Shown here: positions 1 through 16,936 of the stretch, in pieces | How the letters are laid out: every line of letters begins with the position of its first letter | Numbering within the stretch: the stretch's first letter is position 1 | IMG/VR virus record: IMGVR_UViG_3300014497_000020 | Location: 1-33,655 of that record | Length of the DNA stretch: 33,655 bases | Reading direction: 5' to 3' (one strand) | Source: a virus | Translations under genes and position numbers: made by a program | The notes under the pieces: generated by a model | What the model saw: only the letters and a program-made list of their open reading frames with translations | Databases searched by the model: none | What the model was told of the DNA's origin: nothing

Positions 1-858
1 TCTCACCTCAGCGATCAGGTCTTCACGCTCTTTCCAGAGGTCTTGGTCGATCTCAGCAACGATGTGCTTCGTGACAAGCGCGGAAAGCACGGCGGGCTCA
101 AGCGCATCAAGTTCCCATGACTCGTTGCCGTGCTTGCGTTGGTAGCTGGCGAAACGGCTGTCAGTGACCTTCGCCGGGTTGGGTGGCGGCGCGTACTTTT
201 CGACCTGGGTCATGTTGAGCGCAATCCGGCGCACCTCAACATTCGATGCAGCGCCGTCCTGCTCAAGAAAAAGCTCGATCCGCTCTTGCAGGTCGCGCGT
301 CATGTCGATGCCTGAGGGGTCGTGGTCGCCCAGGTGGAGCACGAGGCAATCCTGCCCATCGGTGATTGCGGGCATCAACTGGGTTTCGACCAGCTCGCGA
401 ACGATGGACACCGACGGGTAGCCCTTTGCGGCGAGCAGGGGAACGTCGTACTCACGAGTCGGTCGGTCCAGGACGCCGGCGAGCGCGGCCTTTTCAACGA
501 TGACGAACACGCGGCGCTCCTGCCCTTCCCACATGTCCATGTGGTACTGCTGCGCGACCGCATGAACGATGTCGGCGCCGGAGTTCCAGCGATTGCGCAC
601 GACGATATCTCGACCGCGGTCCTCGATCATGTCCCAGTCGAGCAGACCCGCGAGGCGAGCGTCGTTGATGATCGACGCGACGCGCTTGTAGCTCCGCTCG
701 GTGTTCGGGACGACATCCCGCGCCACGAGCTGGTAGTAGAGCTGACGCACTGAAAGCACGTAGCCTTCTCGTTGGTACTCGCCGACAAGGCGGTCGAGAA
801 AGTCAATCAGCGCGCGCGTCTCGCTGCTGAAGCGGAATGTGCGGTATGCCTGCTTCAT
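1..858 (-). CDS. Spo11/topoisomerase VI A-like protein (Mini-A-like), partial
   Basis: Read from ATG at 858, the frame is open for 286 codons to the window edge, so the C-terminus is missing. A winged-helix (5Y-CAP-like) region at about residues 30-75 contains SVRQLYYQL (36-44). This matches the R-x-(I/L)-(F/Y)-Y signature around the catalytic tyrosine of Spo11 and Topo VI A; Tyr42 is the aligned residue. A TOPRIM-like part follows: VIVEKAA (119-125, Glu122) and LHLGDHDPSGID (174-185, Asp178/Asp180), as in Topo VI A. No B-subunit (GHKL ATPase) gene is visible beside it. This fits the small stand-alone A-subunit homologues of mobile elements called Mini-A. Its biochemistry here is unknown; a role in DNA cleavage or replication/recombination is inference. 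The start overlaps the upstream HD gene stop (ATGA, 855-858), so the two are probably translationally coupled. Confidence 0.72.
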   Translation of the reverse strand, partial: MKQAYRTFRFSSETRALIDFLDRLVGEYQREGYVLSVRQLYYQLVARDVVPNTERSYKRVASIINDARLAGLLDWDMIEDRGRDIVVRNRWNSGADIVHAVAQQYHMDMWEGQERRVFVIVEKAALAGVLDRPTREYDVPLLAAKGYPSVSIVRELVETQLMPAITDGQDCLVLHLGDHDPSGIDMTRDLQERIELFLEQDGAASNVEVRRIALNMTQVEKYAPPPNPAKVTDSRFASYQRKHGNESWELDALEPAVLSALVTKHIVAEIDQDLWKEREDLIAEVR

Positions 859-1517
859 GCCGTGGCCTTCAGTCCCGCGAGGGTTCGGCGGACTTGCAGC
901 GAGAGATATCGGTCGTGGAACTCTTTGCGCCAGTCCTTCCACGTCTTCGCTTCGCGCTCTGCGGAGTCGAGGCGCAGCCAGTCGGCCGGGGCGACCGGCT
1001 GCACGGTGCCATCGCCCAAGACGGGCCACGGCAGGTGCTGGGCCGCGTCGTAGGGCGTGAGGTCGCGCCTGGCGGTGGCGAGGGCTTGCGAGTCGATGGA
1101 GCGCAGTAGTTGCTTGTGGCCCGCGAAGACGGTCAGCAGCTTGAAATGCTCGCGCACGGTCTTGGCGTGCTCGGCTTCGAACATCGTCCATGCTGCGATG
1201 CCTGCCGTGCCCATGCTGAAGCTGTTGACGGCTTGCTTGGCTGGGCTGATGAGGTCGTTCGTGTAGGCCTCGTGCGCGTCATGCATCAGTGCGGCCATCT
1301 CCACGAAAACCGAGGCGCCGGCTCGGCGCGCGATGTCGGCGCAAACGAGGCTGTGTTCCGCGACGCTGTACGGGCGCGAGGTCGCGCCGTTGAACTGGGC
1401 CACGATGGCGAGGTGATGGGCAACGTCCTCGATCTTCACGGGCCGCCCGCACGCGGCGAGCGAAGTCGGGCCGGCGAGGTGGTACTCGGCGCCGCTGGCG
1501 GTAAGCATCCACGTCAT
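855..1517 (-). CDS. HD-domain phosphohydrolase (YfbR-like)
   Basis: This 220-residue protein has metal-binding HD-superfamily motifs: a first histidine in SVAEHSLVCA (His55), the paired HD in ALMHDAHEAY (His79-Asp80), and a later acidic helix around RSIDSQALATARRD. The pattern and length match YfbR-type 5'-deoxynucleotidases and related phage HD hydrolases. In a phage early operon such an enzyme could adjust nucleotide pools; that role is inferred. The frame is open upstream to 1967. ATG 1517 was chosen because GGAGGTG lies about 7 nt upstream and the codon overlaps the previous stop (ATGA, 1514-1517). It also overlaps the next gene by ATGA. Confidence 0.85.
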   Translation of the reverse strand: MTWMLTASGAEYHLAGPTSLAACGRPVKIEDVAHHLAIVAQFNGATSRPYSVAEHSLVCADIARRAGASVFVEMAALMHDAHEAYTNDLISPAKQAVNSFSMGTAGIAAWTMFEAEHAKTVREHFKLLTVFAGHKQLLRSIDSQALATARRDLTPYDAAQHLPWPVLGDGTVQPVAPADWLRLDSAEREAKTWKDWRKEFHDRYLSLQVRRTLAGLKATA

Positions 1518-5102: not shown

Positions 5103-5774
5103 CTACCAGAGGGAAGTGATCTTTCGCCGTGGGACTGGATGCGCGATGTAGTAGACCCAGTCCACATCCTCAAACCGATAGTGAAGCACCACTGAGGTGT
5201 TGTAGCTGCCAAGTCGGTAAGCGCCGCGCTGCGAAAGCAGGCGCTTGATCATCGTGACGCCCGAGGTCAGCCGAACCAGTACATCGTCCTCCAGTTCAGG
5301 CGTGGTCCCTGGCTCCACCAGCGCGAAATCGCCAGGGGTGTACTTTGGAACCATGCTTTCTTCGGAAACTTCCACGAGGAAGGCGTGGGGGTCCGTACTC
5401 GCCACAAGCCCGTATTGATCCGTTGCTCCTACTGGATGGTCTCCATCGCTCCAAATTCGCTCTGACAAGCCGCCAGCGCCTTTGCCGACAACCCATATGC
5501 GATGCGGCTTTGTCGGGTCGACGAGGATTGCTCCATCAGGCAATTGGGGGGCGAGTTCGTTAGGCGGCGGCGGCGTGCTGGCGCTCTCACGGCCAAACGG
5601 ATGAGGGTATCCGGTGACCTCTGCGATCTTCTGGATTTGCACAAAGCTGGGAGCGGTTTTGCCGTTCTCCCAAAACCCTGCCGTTGCCTTGCTCCGACCC
5701 ATGGCGTCGCCGAGCTGCTCAAGCGTCCAGCCTTTGTGTTTTCGGGCGGCACGCACCCAGTCTTTCAACTCCAT
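5103..5774 (-). CDS. cI: CI/LexA-type phage repressor (HTH + S24 peptidase)
   Basis: A 223-residue repressor. The N-terminal XRE helix-turn-helix (about residues 4-58) contains WTLEQLGDAMGRSKATAGFW. The C-terminal S24/LexA-like domain (about 95-215) has the catalytic serine in SEESMVPKYTPGD (Ser140) and lysine in GVTMIKRLL (Lys177). A candidate Ala-Gly autocleavage site is at GKGAGG (Ala100-Gly101). It should maintain lysogeny and be inactivated by RecA-stimulated self-cleavage during DNA damage. Start 5774 is the first ATG ahead of the HTH; GAAGGA directly abuts it, an unusually short spacing. An upstream in-frame extension to 5951 runs across the operator and is rejected. Terminator at 5050-5073; operators on both sides. 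Confidence 0.95.
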   Translation of the reverse strand: MELKDWVRAARKHKGWTLEQLGDAMGRSKATAGFWENGKTAPSFVQIQKIAEVTGYPHPFGRESASTPPPPNELAPQLPDGAILVDPTKPHRIWVVGKGAGGLSERIWSDGDHPVGATDQYGLVASTDPHAFLVEVSEESMVPKYTPGDFALVEPGTTPELEDDVLVRLTSGVTMIKRLLSQRGAYRLGSYNTSVVLHYRFEDVDWVYYIAHPVPRRKITSLW

Positions 5775-5809
5775 TCCTTCATCGTAAAGAAAAACTTGAC
5801 CTCGCGAGG

Positions 5810-7642: not shown

Positions 7643-7873
7643 GCCTGCCCCTTTCGTCTTCGTTGGTTGTGTGAGAACGGCCATGGTAGGGCGGAAGAGT
7701 GCGGGCGCCACATTTTTTGGAGCCGAAGCCCCTCGGGCACGTGATTGGTTGGGGGAGCGCGCGCGCAGCTTCAAGCGCGCCGCCGCAGAGAGGGGGCCGC
7801 GCCTCAGATGACCCGAACCTCCCTCCACCTGCTAGCGCTCGCGGCGCAACGCGAGCGGCGCATTGCCACGTGC
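7643..7873. other. 231-bp intergenic region with a strong hairpin
   Basis: No convincing gene lies here. A perfect inverted repeat (CGCTCGCG at 7836-7843 and CGCGAGCG at 7850-7857, 6-nt loop) stands just beyond the stop of the leftward gene at 7874. It could end that transcript, but no U-tract follows, so it is not a standard intrinsic terminator. The rest presumably carries the promoter for the leftward gene starting at 7642; no good -35/-10 pair was found. Confidence 0.4.
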
Positions 7874-8131
7874 TCACGACCACCGCGCGTCCGCCAGGCG
7901 CACCACGTCGACGGCGGGCGTGAGCACGCGTCGGCACAGCCCCTCGAGCGTCTTCGTCTGCCGCGGTGTGCGTGCGCCATGTGCCAGCGCGCTCGCCGAG
8001 CAGATGGCGATCCACGCCGAGACGGTTTCCCGGTTGATTTCGGGCTCCACCTCCAGCAACAGCACGAGCTGCTGCAGGAATTGCTCGATGGCATCGATTC
8101 GCTCGCTGGGCGTGGGGGCGAAGGCTTCCAT
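7874..8131 (-). CDS. Accessory helical protein, paralogue of the gene at 7223-7642 (85-97 aa)
   Basis: From ATG 8131 the protein is 85 residues (MEAFAPTPSERIDAIEQF); from ATG 8167 it is 97. The segment ERIDAIEQFLQQLVLLLEVE matches its paralogue. A helix with WIAICSASALAHG and a C-terminal VVRLADARW follow. The longer start would overlap the start codon of the divergent CII-like gene (ATG 8166-8168 on the other strand), so the shorter start is preferred. Neither has a strong ribosome site. Its function is unknown. Confidence 0.7.
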   Translation of the reverse strand: MEAFAPTPSERIDAIEQFLQQLVLLLEVEPEINRETVSAWIAICSASALAHGARTPRQTKTLEGLCRRVLTPAVDVVRLADARWS

Positions 8132-8165
8132 GGCCGGCTGGTCTTTCTCTTCTCTTGAGGTTTGC

Positions 8166-8696
8166 ATGAACGCAACTTTCTCAATTCCGGGCCATCTCGC
8201 CTATGGCGGCGATGAGCCCAATCCCTCCAGACCCGCAGGGCAGGACATCCTCGATGCGGTCTACAACACGGTGCACGGGTATCCGGGTGGCGTCACGGCG
8301 CTGGCTGCACGCATGGGCATTCCCGTCAACACGTTGACGCACAAGGCCAACCCCAACACGACCACGCACCAGCCCAACCCACGCGAGCTGATCGCGATGC
8401 AGGCCTTCAGCGGCAATTTCGCGGTGCTCCATGCGATGGCCGAGGCCTTGGGCCACACCTGCACGCTGGCGACGCCAGACCAGTCCGGCGCCGATCCGGT
8501 CGAGGCGCTGATGCGCCTGCACTCGGCCTTCGCCGACTACGTGAGAGCCACGGCCGACGCGGTGCGCGAAGGCGAGGGCGCTGTCACGGGCAATCAGGTC
8601 CGCCGGGCGGACTACGCCGCGCAGGAGGTCATCGCGGCCGTGGGCCACGTCATGGCGCTTCTGCGCGGACGTATGCGGAAGGCGCCGCAGACATGA
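8166..8696 (+). CDS. CII-like phage transcriptional regulator
   Basis: A 176-residue protein of the phage regulatory CII (CP76-type) family. ILDAVYNTVHGYPGGVTALA and ARMGIPVNTLTHKANP form the helix-turn-helix. PNPRELIAMQAFSGNFAVLH and MAEALGHTC follow, and the C-terminal helical part probably oligomerises. It likely activates lysogeny or replication-region promoters in analogy with CII, although the fold differs from lambda CII. Start 8166 has TTGAGG about 5 nt upstream. It opens the rightward block and overlaps the next gene (ATGA, 8693-8696). Confidence 0.85.
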   Translation: MNATFSIPGHLAYGGDEPNPSRPAGQDILDAVYNTVHGYPGGVTALAARMGIPVNTLTHKANPNTTTHQPNPRELIAMQAFSGNFAVLHAMAEALGHTCTLATPDQSGADPVEALMRLHSAFADYVRATADAVREGEGAVTGNQVRRADYAAQEVIAAVGHVMALLRGRMRKAPQT

Positions 8697-11023: not shown

Positions 11024-11571
11024 AGGTAGTTGAAGCTATGGGAGTGGGCATCACGCAAGCGGAGTTCGCTGCGCTGGTCGGCGTGAGCGAGGCGAAGGCG
11101 AGCCAGCTGGTGGGCGAGGGCATCATCGAGCGCGGCCAGACCGCCCATGCCTGGCTGCTCGCCTACTGCGAACGCCTGCGCGAGGTGGCCGCGGGCCGCG
11201 CATCGGTCGAGGCCGGCGGGCTTGACCTCGTGCAAGAGCGCGCCAGGCTGGCGCGCAGCCAGCGCGAGGCGCAGGACATCAAGAACGCCGTGGCCCGCGG
11301 CGAGTTCGCGCCCATCGGCCTGCTCGCCGACGTGCTCGGCATGGCATCGAGCGCGGTCGTGGATCGCTTCGAGCAGCTCGAAGGTGCGCTGCGCAAGGCG
11401 TGCCCTGACTTGCCGGACGAGGCGAAGGCCACGGTGCAGCAGGTCATCGCGAACGCGCGCAACGAGTGGATTCGTGCAACCGAAAAGCTGGTGGTGCTCG
11501 AGCTGGATCGGCTGGTGTCCGACGACGAAGGCAGCGCCGAGGACGTGCTCGGCGAAGAGGCGGGGCAGTAG
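11020..11571 (+). CDS. nu1: Terminase small subunit (Nu1-like)
   Basis: A 183-residue Nu1-family protein. An N-terminal winged helix (GITQAEFAALVGVSEAKASQ, about 8-27) recognises phage DNA. A basic helix follows (VQERARLARSQREAQDIKNA), then GEFAPIGLLADVLGMASSAV and a helical C-terminus expected to contact the large subunit. GTG 11020 has AGGGGG about 5 nt upstream; an ATG at 11038 is a weaker alternative. It overlaps the large subunit start (TAGTG, 11569-11573), so the subunits are coupled. Confidence 0.92.
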   Translation: MKVVEAMGVGITQAEFAALVGVSEAKASQLVGEGIIERGQTAHAWLLAYCERLREVAAGRASVEAGGLDLVQERARLARSQREAQDIKNAVARGEFAPIGLLADVLGMASSAVVDRFEQLEGALRKACPDLPDEAKATVQQVIANARNEWIRATEKLVVLELDRLVSDDEGSAEDVLGEEAGQ

Positions 11572-13613
11572 TGGCTGAGTACGTTTCGCGTGAAACATTG
11601 CGCGCCGTGATCCACGCGGTGAGCCTCGGCCTCGGCAGTCTGCGCGCCGAGGTTTTCCAGACGCTCAGCGAGTGGGCCCCCGACAACTTCAAGCTGGCCG
11701 GCGAAAGCTCGCACCAGAAGGGCGGATGGATCGCGTGGTTCTTTCAGATCGGCATCCTCGACTTCATGAGCGACGACCGCATCGAGGAACTCGATGTGAT
11801 GAAGTCCAAGCGCGTCGGCTACACGAAGATGATCACCGCCTTCGTGGCCTACAACATCGCGCACCGCCGGCGCAAGCAGGCGCTCTGGCAGCCGACAGAC
11901 GACGACCGCGACAGCTACGTCAAGAGCGAGATCGATCCCATCCTTGATGCGCGCGACGGCGTGCCCTCGGTGCAGGCCGCGCGCCGCAAGGGTGGTGGAA
12001 GCGACGACACCATCAAGATGAAGAAGTTTCGCGACAGCGTTCTTCATCTACTCGGCGGGAAGGCCAAGCGAGCCTATCGGCGCATCACCGTGGCGATTGC
12101 CATCCTCGATGAGTGGTCCGCCTTCGACCAGACCATCGAGAAATCTGGCGACCCGGGCGGCCTGGCGAAGGGCCGCCTCGAAGGCGCTCCCTATCCGAAG
12201 TTCGTTGGCGGCTCGACGCCTGGCTTCAAAGGGCTGTGCCATGTCGAGCGTGCCGTGCTCAACGCCGAGGGCTTCGTTCGCTTCTACATCGACTGCAAGC
12301 ACTGTGGCCTCGAGCATCCGCTCGCATGGGGCGACAAGGGAAAGCTGCACGGCTTCAAGTGGGACCGCGGCAACCCCGCCAGCGTGCACCATGTCTGCCC
12401 GCATTGCCGCAAGTCCATTCGGCAGAGCGACTTCCTGCAGGGCGGCCTTCCCATGCAGGGCACCTGGGTGTGCGAGAAGACGGGAAAGAGGTTCGGGCCG
12501 GACCGAGTGTGGCGCGACAGCGCCGGCATGCCCACTCGCCCGCCGAAGACGCTGGGTGTGCACATCTGGGCCGCGTACAGCCCGCAGCGCACCTGGGAGA
12601 GCATCGTCAAGGAATTCGAGGAAGCGCTCGACGCACTCGCCCGCGGCGACTCGGGGCCGATGCAACTCTTCGTCAACGAGACGCTCGGCGAGACATGGGA
12701 AGTCGTCGGCGAGCGCACCGATGAGCATGCGCTGCAATCGCGTGCCGAAGACTACCCGCTGAAGACTGTGCCGGCGGGTGGCCTGATCCTGACGGCGGGC
12801 GTGGACGTGCAGCGCGACCGTTGGGAAATCGACGTGTGGGCGTGGGGGCGCGGCTTGGAGTCCTGGCACGTCGACCACCATGTCATCCATGGCAATCCTG
12901 CGTCCGAAGATGACTGGGCGCCGGTCGCGGCCTACCTGTCGAGCCGTTACGTGCAAGCTTGGCACGGCGGCTCGATGGGGTTGAGCGCAATTTCCATCGA
13001 CTCGAGCGACCAAACGCAGGCGGTCTACAACTGGGTGCGCAAGACGCAGCACCAGCTTCCGAGGCTGCGCGCCATCAAGGGGCGCGGCGAAGAGAACGTG
13101 CCCGTCCTTGGCCCCAGCAGCCCGCAGGAAGTGCGGTGGAACGGCACAAAGATTCCCAACGGCATCAAGCTGTGGAATGTCGGCATCGACTCGGCGAAGG
13201 ACCTGTTGCTCGGGCAGCTCGCCATCGAGAAGCCGGGGCCGGGCTTCGTTCACTTCAGCCAGGAGCTGCCGCAAGAGTGGTTCGAACAGCTCACGGCCGA
13301 GCAGCGCATCCTCGTGAAGGTCAACGGGAAAGAAGCCTACCGTTGGGTCAAGCGCAGGCCGCGCAACGAGGTGCTCGACAACCGCAACTACGCACTGCAC
13401 GCCGCCTTCGGCCTCGGCCTTCACAACTACACGGACAAGCGTTGGAGCGACCTCGAGGCCTCAGTGCAGCCTGCTCGTGATCTCTTTACCCCGCCGGCTT
13501 CGCTTCAGCTCAGCACAACCGCGGCACCGCCAAGGCTGTCGGAAGCAGTCGCGAGCACCGGTGCGTCCGCTTCGACTGACGTAGATATTTTTTCTCCCAT
13601 TGCACTGACCTGA
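11571..13613 (+). CDS. A: Terminase large subunit (lambda GpA-like)
   Basis: A 680-residue packaging motor. The lambda GpA-type Walker A is MKSKRVGYTKM (about 77-87) and Walker B is AIAILDEW (about 175-182, Asp180/Glu181). A zinc-finger-like pair (CKHCG at 242-246, CPHC at 276-279) sits between the ATPase and nuclease parts. The nuclease begins TAGVDVQRDRWE, with Asp412 as the metal-binding candidate. The length is close to lambda GpA (641), with an extra serine/threonine/alanine-rich tail. GTG 11571 overlaps the small-subunit stop; the frame extends upstream to 11466 but only inside the small-subunit gene. Confidence 0.96.
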   Translation: MAEYVSRETLRAVIHAVSLGLGSLRAEVFQTLSEWAPDNFKLAGESSHQKGGWIAWFFQIGILDFMSDDRIEELDVMKSKRVGYTKMITAFVAYNIAHRRRKQALWQPTDDDRDSYVKSEIDPILDARDGVPSVQAARRKGGGSDDTIKMKKFRDSVLHLLGGKAKRAYRRITVAIAILDEWSAFDQTIEKSGDPGGLAKGRLEGAPYPKFVGGSTPGFKGLCHVERAVLNAEGFVRFYIDCKHCGLEHPLAWGDKGKLHGFKWDRGNPASVHHVCPHCRKSIRQSDFLQGGLPMQGTWVCEKTGKRFGPDRVWRDSAGMPTRPPKTLGVHIWAAYSPQRTWESIVKEFEEALDALARGDSGPMQLFVNETLGETWEVVGERTDEHALQSRAEDYPLKTVPAGGLILTAGVDVQRDRWEIDVWAWGRGLESWHVDHHVIHGNPASEDDWAPVAAYLSSRYVQAWHGGSMGLSAISIDSSDQTQAVYNWVRKTQHQLPRLRAIKGRGEENVPVLGPSSPQEVRWNGTKIPNGIKLWNVGIDSAKDLLLGQLAIEKPGPGFVHFSQELPQEWFEQLTAEQRILVKVNGKEAYRWVKRRPRNEVLDNRNYALHAAFGLGLHNYTDKRWSDLEASVQPARDLFTPPASLQLSTTAAPPRLSEAVASTGASASTDVDIFSPIALT

Positions 13614-14725: not shown

Positions 14726-16936
14726 ATGAAAAAACAAGACCTACTTACGCAGCTTATCCCGTTCGGTGACATTGGAGAGGAACCTGTAAAAATCACCGAA
14801 CAGGGCGATAAGTTTACTGTCAAAATGATTCGCGACGGTAAACCCATGAAGCTCTCGGTTGATGGAGTGAGCGGCAAAATTCAATGCACATGGGGTTCGT
14901 TTCCTGCGAGAGGGTTTGCGTCCTTTTCGGCTCTTCTAGCCTCTGAAATTTTCGCCAACTTAAAGCGTTGGGGCGATGCGCAAGCTCTGCTTTTGCGGGA
15001 GCTGGATGCTCCAGATAAATTATTGCCTTTCCAAGGCACGACGCACGATAAAAAACAACTAAGCTCTGTTGATGAAATCGATTCTTTACTCGGGGGGGTA
15101 GCAAGAAGCGAAGATTTTACGGAAATACTTCTGATTGATGGCCCGGCGGGCATCGGAAAAACAAGCCTTATCGAGCAGCTGGCGTTGAAGCGTGCAAGTG
15201 CCTACAAGACCGCCGCTCGGCCGCTAATCCTACATGTCAAAAGCCGAGGCAGAGTGTTGTCGAATCTGCAAGATCTTATGGCGTTTAGTTTGCAAACAAT
15301 TCGCTCCCAAATTACTTACGACCAAATTCCGGTGCTCGCCAAGCACGGGTTGGTGGTCATCGCTATTGACGGATTCGATGAGCTCGCGGACCCCAATGGT
15401 TATGAGATGGCGTGGGCACAGCTAAGTGACTTAATCGCATTTATACGTGGCAAGGGCACACTGATTTTGGCAGGTAGGGATACGTTCATTAATCGTTCGC
15501 GATTGCTAGAAGACGTGGAGGTCCTTCGGGAAGGTAAGGATTCGGTGATTGGGCTCACCCTCGGTCCGCCGTTACCGGACCAAGCTAAGGCATGGCTGGC
15601 GAAGCAGCCGAAGCATCCGTGGACTCAGGAAAACTTTGAAATACCCTCGATTGCAGTCTTGCTAGAGCGCGGCTCATTCGCACTTCGTCCGGTATTTCTG
15701 CGCATTTTGGCAAAACACATTAAGCCGAAAGAACTGGAAGGTAAGCACGAGCGATATTTGACGCCGCTTTTGGTGAATGAAATGATTCGGCGCGAGGCAG
15801 GGCTTTTTGGAAAACCAATAAATGCAGTGCTGAATGAATCTCAGAGAGAGGGGTTTTTGAACAGCTTTCTTTGCGAAACCGCGCGACAGATGGCGGATTC
15901 GCAAGTGGAAGCGCTGGATGCTAGCGAAGTGGCGTGGATAAGTGAGGCAGCTCTTGAAGAAGGTTTGCCGTCAGAAGTCGTGGCGCTTATAAGAAATCGC
16001 GCCGGAGTCGTAGCTTTTTTTGTAAACGACGAGCGCAATGGCTACAAAACATTCTTGCATTCCTATCTAATGAATTATTTCCTCGCTCTTGTCGTCGTTG
16101 ACGCAATTGGGCGAGGAGATATTCCGAAGTTTGTGCGAAGAAATCTGTTGGGTTCTGAGTTTCTTTCGGTGTTTTGCGATGTTGTTGCCGAAGCGGCGGT
16201 TGCTGATAAGGCGAAATTTGATCGATTCTTCGAAAAGGCCGCCGCGAGTTCTCTTTCCTACACGAGTGTCGATCGCGGACTACGGAATCTGGGAGCTTTA
16301 GCGCTAGCCGCCCTATCGGCTGTTATCCCCGGTGAAGAGTTGATTTTAAGAGAGTTTTCGATTGATGATGGAGTAATTCGGGGGATTTGCCCGGACTGCG
16401 TTTTGGAGAACTTTGAAATAAGCCAGCTTGACATCCGCGGTGCTGACTTGTCGTCTGTGACGTGGACGGGGGGGGCAATTTCGGGAGTTATTGCTGATTC
16501 GGCAATTCGAGTGTCACCATCATTTCCGCTGCCAACAAAAATTTCGCTGGCAGACGATACGGAGATCATAGGTGCAGAGGCTGTTTCGTCTTGGTTGGCA
16601 AGCAGAGGGCGTGATGCCGAATATGTCGATCAAACCGGGTTGGCAACTCTTCGGAGCAAACCGCTGTATCTATTGCTGATGCGAGCGGCTCGGCTGCGTC
16701 AATATTGGCTTCGAGCGGAGGCGGATGATTTTCAAGCCAGCAAAATACTCAATGACAGAGATTGGCCTGAACTGGCGAAGATACTGGTTGAGCGTGATTT
16801 GTTGCGCGAAGAGATTCGGCAGGCCTCTGGTCGATCATCAAAGTTTTTTCACATAAAGCATCGAGAAAGTATCCTTTCCGAATCAGTAGAAATCGAGGCG
16901 CTTGCTGGACTTTTCGAGGATATCCGAAAGTCTTGA
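14726..16936 (+). CDS. NACHT-type STAND NTPase, putative defence sensor
   Basis: A 736-residue protein. Residues 1-110 form an alpha/beta domain I do not recognise. The NACHT core follows: Walker A GPAGIGKTS (139-147), Walker B VVIAIDGFDELADP (210-223, Asp215, Asp218/Glu219), a sensor-like TLILAGRDTF (245-254, Arg251), and FLHSYLMNYFLAL (443-455), matching the FxHxxxxEYFxA region of NACHT proteins. Residues about 555-595 (VLENFEISQLDIRGADLSSV) look pentapeptide-repeat-like; the last 90 residues look winged-helix-like. There is no membrane segment. STAND NTPases oligomerise on sensing a trigger; here the partner NYN nuclease is the likely effector. It starts 1 nt after that gene's stop without its own ribosome site. 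Low GC (26 of 60 at 15001-15060). Confidence 0.88.
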   Translation: MKKQDLLTQLIPFGDIGEEPVKITEQGDKFTVKMIRDGKPMKLSVDGVSGKIQCTWGSFPARGFASFSALLASEIFANLKRWGDAQALLLRELDAPDKLLPFQGTTHDKKQLSSVDEIDSLLGGVARSEDFTEILLIDGPAGIGKTSLIEQLALKRASAYKTAARPLILHVKSRGRVLSNLQDLMAFSLQTIRSQITYDQIPVLAKHGLVVIAIDGFDELADPNGYEMAWAQLSDLIAFIRGKGTLILAGRDTFINRSRLLEDVEVLREGKDSVIGLTLGPPLPDQAKAWLAKQPKHPWTQENFEIPSIAVLLERGSFALRPVFLRILAKHIKPKELEGKHERYLTPLLVNEMIRREAGLFGKPINAVLNESQREGFLNSFLCETARQMADSQVEALDASEVAWISEAALEEGLPSEVVALIRNRAGVVAFFVNDERNGYKTFLHSYLMNYFLALVVVDAIGRGDIPKFVRRNLLGSEFLSVFCDVVAEAAVADKAKFDRFFEKAAASSLSYTSVDRGLRNLGALALAALSAVIPGEELILREFSIDDGVIRGICPDCVLENFEISQLDIRGADLSSVTWTGGAISGVIADSAIRVSPSFPLPTKISLADDTEIIGAEAVSSWLASRGRDAEYVDQTGLATLRSKPLYLLLMRAARLRQYWLRAEADDFQASKILNDRDWPELAKILVERDLLREEIRQASGRSSKFFHIKHRESILSESVEIEALAGLFEDIRKS

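Follow-up and report, generated by a model that had tools for sequence, protein, structure and literature searches.

The window, the whole 33,655-nucleotide stretch of IMG/VR virus record IMGVR_UViG_3300014497_000020, begins inside a gene. A minus-strand frame (858..1) has no stop codon between its ATG at position 858 and base 1 and codes for a protein of 286 residues. The 3' end of the gene lies outside the contig; the closest relative of its product has 301 residues. Directly upstream is an HD-domain gene (855-1517, minus strand) whose product resembles dNMP phosphatases (phrog_318, E 1.8e-30; Pfam HD over its cut-off), in agreement with the HD nucleotidase proposed in an earlier note on this DNA. 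The two genes are probably translated together because the TGA of the HD gene overlaps the ATG of the 286-codon frame in the motif ATGA.

By its predicted gene content the window is part of the genome of a lambda-like temperate phage. It encodes an S24/HTH repressor (5103-5780, minus strand), a CII-like activator (7863-8696, plus strand), an O-like replication protein and the large terminase TerL (11466-13613, plus strand). The 286-codon frame is located in a leftward unit on the repressor side. Lambda carries recombination genes on the repressor side, and the frame would occupy a position parallel to theirs.

PHROG 6247, annotated "DNA topoisomerase", covers residues 1-286 of the window protein in a profile search (E 5.3e-119). 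Because of this coverage, and of homologues present in phage records and in IMG/VR, the frame is a genuine gene. From end to end, the window protein and gp49 of Pseudomonas phage NP1 share 54% identity (287 aligned positions, E 2e-110); another full-length relative, L001, is 63% identical. The founding paper on the Mini-A family is reportedly that of Takahashi et al. 2020, and the definition used here is that of later reviews. These describe Mini-A as truncated Top6A homologues of archaeoviruses and bacteriophages (PMC7614492) that are encoded by mobile elements, are near Topo VIII or its A subunit and have an unknown function (PMC8185306, PMC8084294), while a 2024 paper presents Mini-A as a viral homologue of Topo VI-A/Spo11 that is ancient (PMC11302465). 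Phage NP1 serves as the illustration of Mini-A in a 2021 review (Fig. 4 legend, PMC7614492), and gp49, the sole NP1 region matched by the window protein, would be its Mini-A. The window gene (1-858, minus strand; the 5' 286 codons) is assigned to Mini-A because of its full-length identity to gp49, which bears out the name suggested in the earlier note. By PHROG 6247, the phage homologues and this identity, it is a typical, ordinary example of a published family and not a new one. The membership is independent of sequence-profile kinship to Topo VI A. The NP1 exemplar and the window protein have the same size and the same domains and are both phage-borne with no B subunit; they feature no difference that matters, the last carboxyl terminus residues of the window protein being beyond the contig edge.

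Homologues of the window protein are found in 74 annotated phage records, including Chi-like Salmonella phages, Nipunavirus and phages of Roseobacter, Brevundimonas, Flavobacterium and Listeria. In IMG/VR, 545 stretches fit the search patterns and encode a relative, the best 80 of which were retrieved. Relatives are also encoded by 83 stretches of genome contigs and 43 plasmids have matches, mostly distant Streptomyces forms. Mini-A is carried by viruses and mobile elements, as seen from the phage records, the plasmids and the window itself with its TerL, CII- and O-like genes, and the relatives are small stand-alone A-type proteins of ~300 amino acids. Two of them lie in contigs binned to archaea, a Methanimicrococcus MAG (L150) and a Nanoarchaeota MAG (L098). 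The assemblies of both MAGs gave no match to TP6A_N; incomplete bins or misassigned contigs are possible. In Parabacteroides phage PDS1 (L166:7917-8803) a frameshift splits Mini-A into two genes annotated as topoisomerase and primase; Bacteroides phage C1_85S2P, a near relative of PDS1, codes Mini-A in a single frame.

TP6A_N (PF04406) and TOP6A-Spo11_Toprim (PF21180) do not match the window protein, a direct search of the window with PF04406 was empty and searches of PDB sequences with the protein and with its profile returned no match. Among 117 relatives, TP6A_N matches nine weakly and TOP6A-Spo11_Toprim twelve (E up to 0.1; best about 0.002). When hhalign was applied against a set of 51 Topo VI A sequences, the three motifs all paired up in the same order, but the E of 0.023 is not significant: of 40 column-shuffled decoys, 2 outscored it. 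Being no better than the best decoys, the score was dropped as evidence of homology. Because the PF04406 and PDB sequence searches were empty, the kinship of Mini-A with Topo VI A rests on predicted structure and motif order. DUF2399, a Toprim family common to JetD-type nucleases, is the best Pfam match of the window protein, under its cut-off, and matches 34 of the 117 relatives.

AlphaFold, run with 117 aligned sequences, models the window protein at a mean pLDDT of 94.7 and a pTM of 0.88. Ranking of the whole model against the PDB with VIA-align places Topo VI A first, with 1d3y (Z 11.1, 151 residues, 4.9 A) and 9o0g (Z 10.7, 148 residues, 3.5 A), then MksG 8b7f (Z 10.5) and JetD 7til (Z 10.0). 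Other Toprim or Rossmann-like structures have Z scores of 9.2 or less, below Topo VI A, MksG and JetD, and Spo11 8uru (Z 8.4) falls among them. Foldseek gave Topo VI A 9o0g as the only match below 0.001, and a BFVD search had one notable match, a 152-residue unnamed entry. The whole-model PDB listings align the Toprim half only (for 1d3y, residues 98-269), and for this reason the amino terminal half was folded and searched separately.

The first 103 residues folded alone reach a pLDDT of 87. Their winged helix finds 1d3y first in the PDB (Z 7.6; residues 11-82 lie on 72-143, with 69 residues aligned at 2.4 A), a score that is modest by itself since other winged helices go up to 6.8; the same Topo VI A structure is at the top of both listings. 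The alignment has the same offset, 61, at its two ends, which sets Tyr42 on residue 103 of 1d3y, in M. jannaschii Topo VI A the catalytic tyrosine. The predicted architecture is a winged-helix (5Y-CAP-like) domain (residues 11-82; positions 613-828, minus strand) followed by a Toprim domain with a conserved segment after it (residues 106-270; positions 49-543, minus strand), each matched to Topo VI A separately and not in one rigid superposition. The Spo11/Topo VI A-like character first read from the sequence is borne out by this model, which in the PDB comes closest to Topo VI A, MksG/JetD and Spo11 and whose winged helix leads to Topo VI A.

The motif SVRQLYYQL (residues 36-44) holds Tyr41 and Tyr42, VIVEKAA holds Glu122, and LHLGDHDPSGID holds Asp178 and Asp180, exactly where the earlier note had placed the catalytic positions. 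Tyr42 (733-735) is the predicted nucleophile, Glu122 (493-495) the Toprim glutamate and Asp178-His-Asp180 (319-327) the Toprim DxD, all coded on the minus strand like the two residues that follow. Arg38 (745-747), which by motif comparison corresponds to the arginine of the Topo VI clasp (M. mazei R102), stands four residues ahead of Tyr42 in an R-x-x-x-Y motif with the spacing found in Topo VI A. Glu249 (112-114) lies in the sequence WELDAL, which occupies in Mini-A the place of K[AS]EQQA[LF] in Topo VI A; by order and motif it is the probable counterpart of Topo VI E342. R38, Y42, E122, D178, D180 and E249 are unchanged in 158 sequences and in the 117-sequence alignment, and the first five are also invariant in a diverse set of 14 that includes homologues down to 21% identity. 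None of the 158, 117 and 14 sequences compared lacks Tyr42, Glu122, Asp178 or Asp180. This invariance, the fold and the family membership are computational observations. The relatives from Cellulophaga/Chryseobacterium phages (L233:3974-4996, L236:2677-3705) are very divergent, with 21-22% identity; they retain R38, Y42, E122, D178 and D180 and have deazaguanine genes nearby.

The catalytic set of Topo VI comprises Y106 and the acidic tetrad E202/D254/D256/E342, and its R102-E342 clasp, common to Spo11, restrains cleavage; in the E342Q mutant nicking is favoured by Mg2+ (PMC13040014). The R38-E249 pair may restrain cleavage by Mini-A in the way of the Topo VI clasp R102-E342. Within the diverse set of 14, the Glu249 column has Gln in two Streptomyces plasmid homologues (L232:4040-4873 and L235:3944-4870; 28-29% identity), where the alignment is tentative. 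This is the same change as Topo VI E342Q, which raises cleavage (PMC13040014).

The Toprim half could also belong to a hydrolytic nuclease of the JetD/MksG type acting on host DNA or rival elements, in which Tyr42 would not be the nucleophile. On this domain the scores of the MksG and JetD structures (8b7f, 7til) are similar to those of Topo VI A, and DUF2399 and JetD profiles match weakly. Such a nuclease would not need Tyr42, yet Mini-A differs from JetD/MksG in retaining this winged-helix tyrosine, invariant in all compared sequences down to 21% identity. Together with PADLOC matches that are weak (E 1.5e-4 at best) and no JetA, JetB or JetC, the SMC-like components, among the neighbours of Mini-A as annotated in the records, this makes a hydrolytic nuclease very unlikely. 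A defence role of Mini-A found no support in PADLOC and was discarded. A catalytically dead, DNA-binding or architectural relic would recall the many Topo VIII enzymes that a review describes in variable states of inactivation (PMC7614492), and one related record does have a frameshift-split Mini-A gene; but the predicted catalytic residues are invariant across phages, plasmids and genome contigs, and a relic is extremely improbable.

The window ends inside Mini-A, so that the next gene lies outside it, and the B subunit was searched for in the records of relatives. HATPase_c_3 was detected in one of 56 Mini-A records and HATPase_c in none, many of these records being fragments; both profiles were detected in all 14 control genomes. 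As the GHKL searches of the 56 records gave a single, architecturally different protein, the lack of a B subunit around Mini-A looks real, and the tested part of the family agrees with what had been noted for the window alone. The single protein (L071:11538-12983, plus strand), coded two genes past a Mini-A, has an amino terminal GHKL ATPase and a carboxyl terminal HEFGH zinc-protease-like motif, and its relative is found in just one other phage record (LR745208.1, 41.7% identity). Its different carboxyl terminal part and its single occurrence among the loci rule it out as a Topo VI B.

Mini-A might still be a partner-dependent topoisomerase, in which an unrecognised phage or host ATPase takes the place of Topo VI B for full strand passage. 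The A fold and the R-E clasp are kept in Mini-A, the clasp restrains cleavage in the B-regulated Topo VI, and helicases are the commonest annotated neighbours. No neighbour family, however, recurs beyond a few loci, and the GHKL counts of 1/56 and 0/56, with a GHKL and HEXXH protein that is not Topo VI B as the one match, also speak against such a partner, which is distinctly unlikely.

DNA helicases, ATP-dependent ligase, primases and pyrophosphatases are the most frequent families in a set of 148 genes that neighbour Mini-A in 61 dereplicated viral loci, each seen five times or fewer. Annotated relatives lie among genes for polymerase, ligase, ThyX, Sak4, Cas4, RuvC-like and NinB/NinG proteins, with SSB and nucleotide enzymes also present. 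This describes a replication and recombination context and is not an enrichment result. Given such neighbours, the host-DNA cleavage offered in the earlier note as one possible role is not favoured over its other proposal, phage DNA processing. A fixed recombination partner, an idea prompted by phage NP1, was ruled out by the presence of Sak4 in only 5/56 Mini-A records and of a Cas4-like exonuclease in 4/56. Because no recombination gene is a constant neighbour, the pathway assignment for Mini-A rests on general gene context.

The favoured reading, with a probability of about 0.6, is that Mini-A cleaves DNA through its tyrosine in the manner of Spo11, in the service of phage recombination or replication, an activity that we infer. 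The protein is a stand-alone Topo VI A/Spo11 homologue of ~300 residues with a tyrosine-bearing winged helix and then a Toprim domain. In a homodimer, Tyr42 of each chain would act together with the metal-binding Toprim acids of its partner to cleave duplex DNA by transesterification; the ends would be 5'-phosphotyrosyl-linked and have a short 5' overhang. Because there is no GHKL gate for strand passage by an ATP-driven two-gate cycle, Mini-A should behave like Spo11 or like a nicking/religating enzyme. Early in infection, or once a prophage is induced, it would likely take part in the replication, recombination or concatemer processing of phage DNA. A more specific proposal, less likely than not, is that Mini-A is a self-sufficient, B-free Spo11-type enzyme whose programmed tyrosine-linked double-strand breaks start recombination-dependent phage replication, with the R38-E249 clasp restraining it.

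The same gate-less protein might instead relax DNA independently of ATP, a transient nick or cut followed by religation relieving supercoils during phage replication. The topoisomerase catalytic set is intact in Mini-A, Microscilla marina Topo VIII relaxed DNA with no need of ATP (PMC7614492) and Mg2+ favoured nicking in Topo VI E342Q (PMC13040014). The papers found report no measurement on any Mini-A, however, its function being given as unknown in reviews, and a relaxing or nicking-closing enzyme is unlikely.

Spo11 shares its catalytic fold with Mini-A (8uru; on the Toprim domain, Z 8.4) and also cleavage uncoupled from strand passage, the mode proposed for Mini-A. Spo11 works together with accessory proteins and with Rec102/104 or TOPOVIBL, its Topo VI B-like partner; none of these was seen for Mini-A. 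Topo VI A shares the order of winged helix and Toprim domain, the catalytic Tyr, Glu and DxD, the R-x-x-x-Y motif and probably E342; it differs in its length of 350-400 amino acids, against about 300 in Mini-A, and is too distant for significant profile matches. The Topo VI holoenzyme differs further, as no Topo VI B-like GHKL gene was found in the 56 searched Mini-A records. Reviews place Mini-A near the A part of Topo VIII and both on mobile elements (PMC8185306, PMC8084294), but Topo VIII has A- and B-type parts and Mini-A only the A part.

Mini-A is among the few named Spo11 relatives with no activity reported in the literature found. The window gene being an ordinary example of the family, the interest lies in what such an enzyme does without an ATP-driven partner subunit. 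Intact catalytic residues in many phages lacking an ATPase partner would make Mini-A a simple system for studying how the Topo VI A core cuts alone, and also for asking how Spo11-type cleavage arose. Comparison with the 2026 Topo VI structures offers R38 and E249 as a concrete residue pair for mutation.

The window codes, just past the terminase gene, for a NACHT/STAND ATPase-like protein of 736 amino acids (14726-16936, plus strand; Pfam NACHT, E 5e-7) with no PHROG match. Its gene lies in an island of ~49% GC within a phage of 64% GC and looks like a cargo gene of the defence type.
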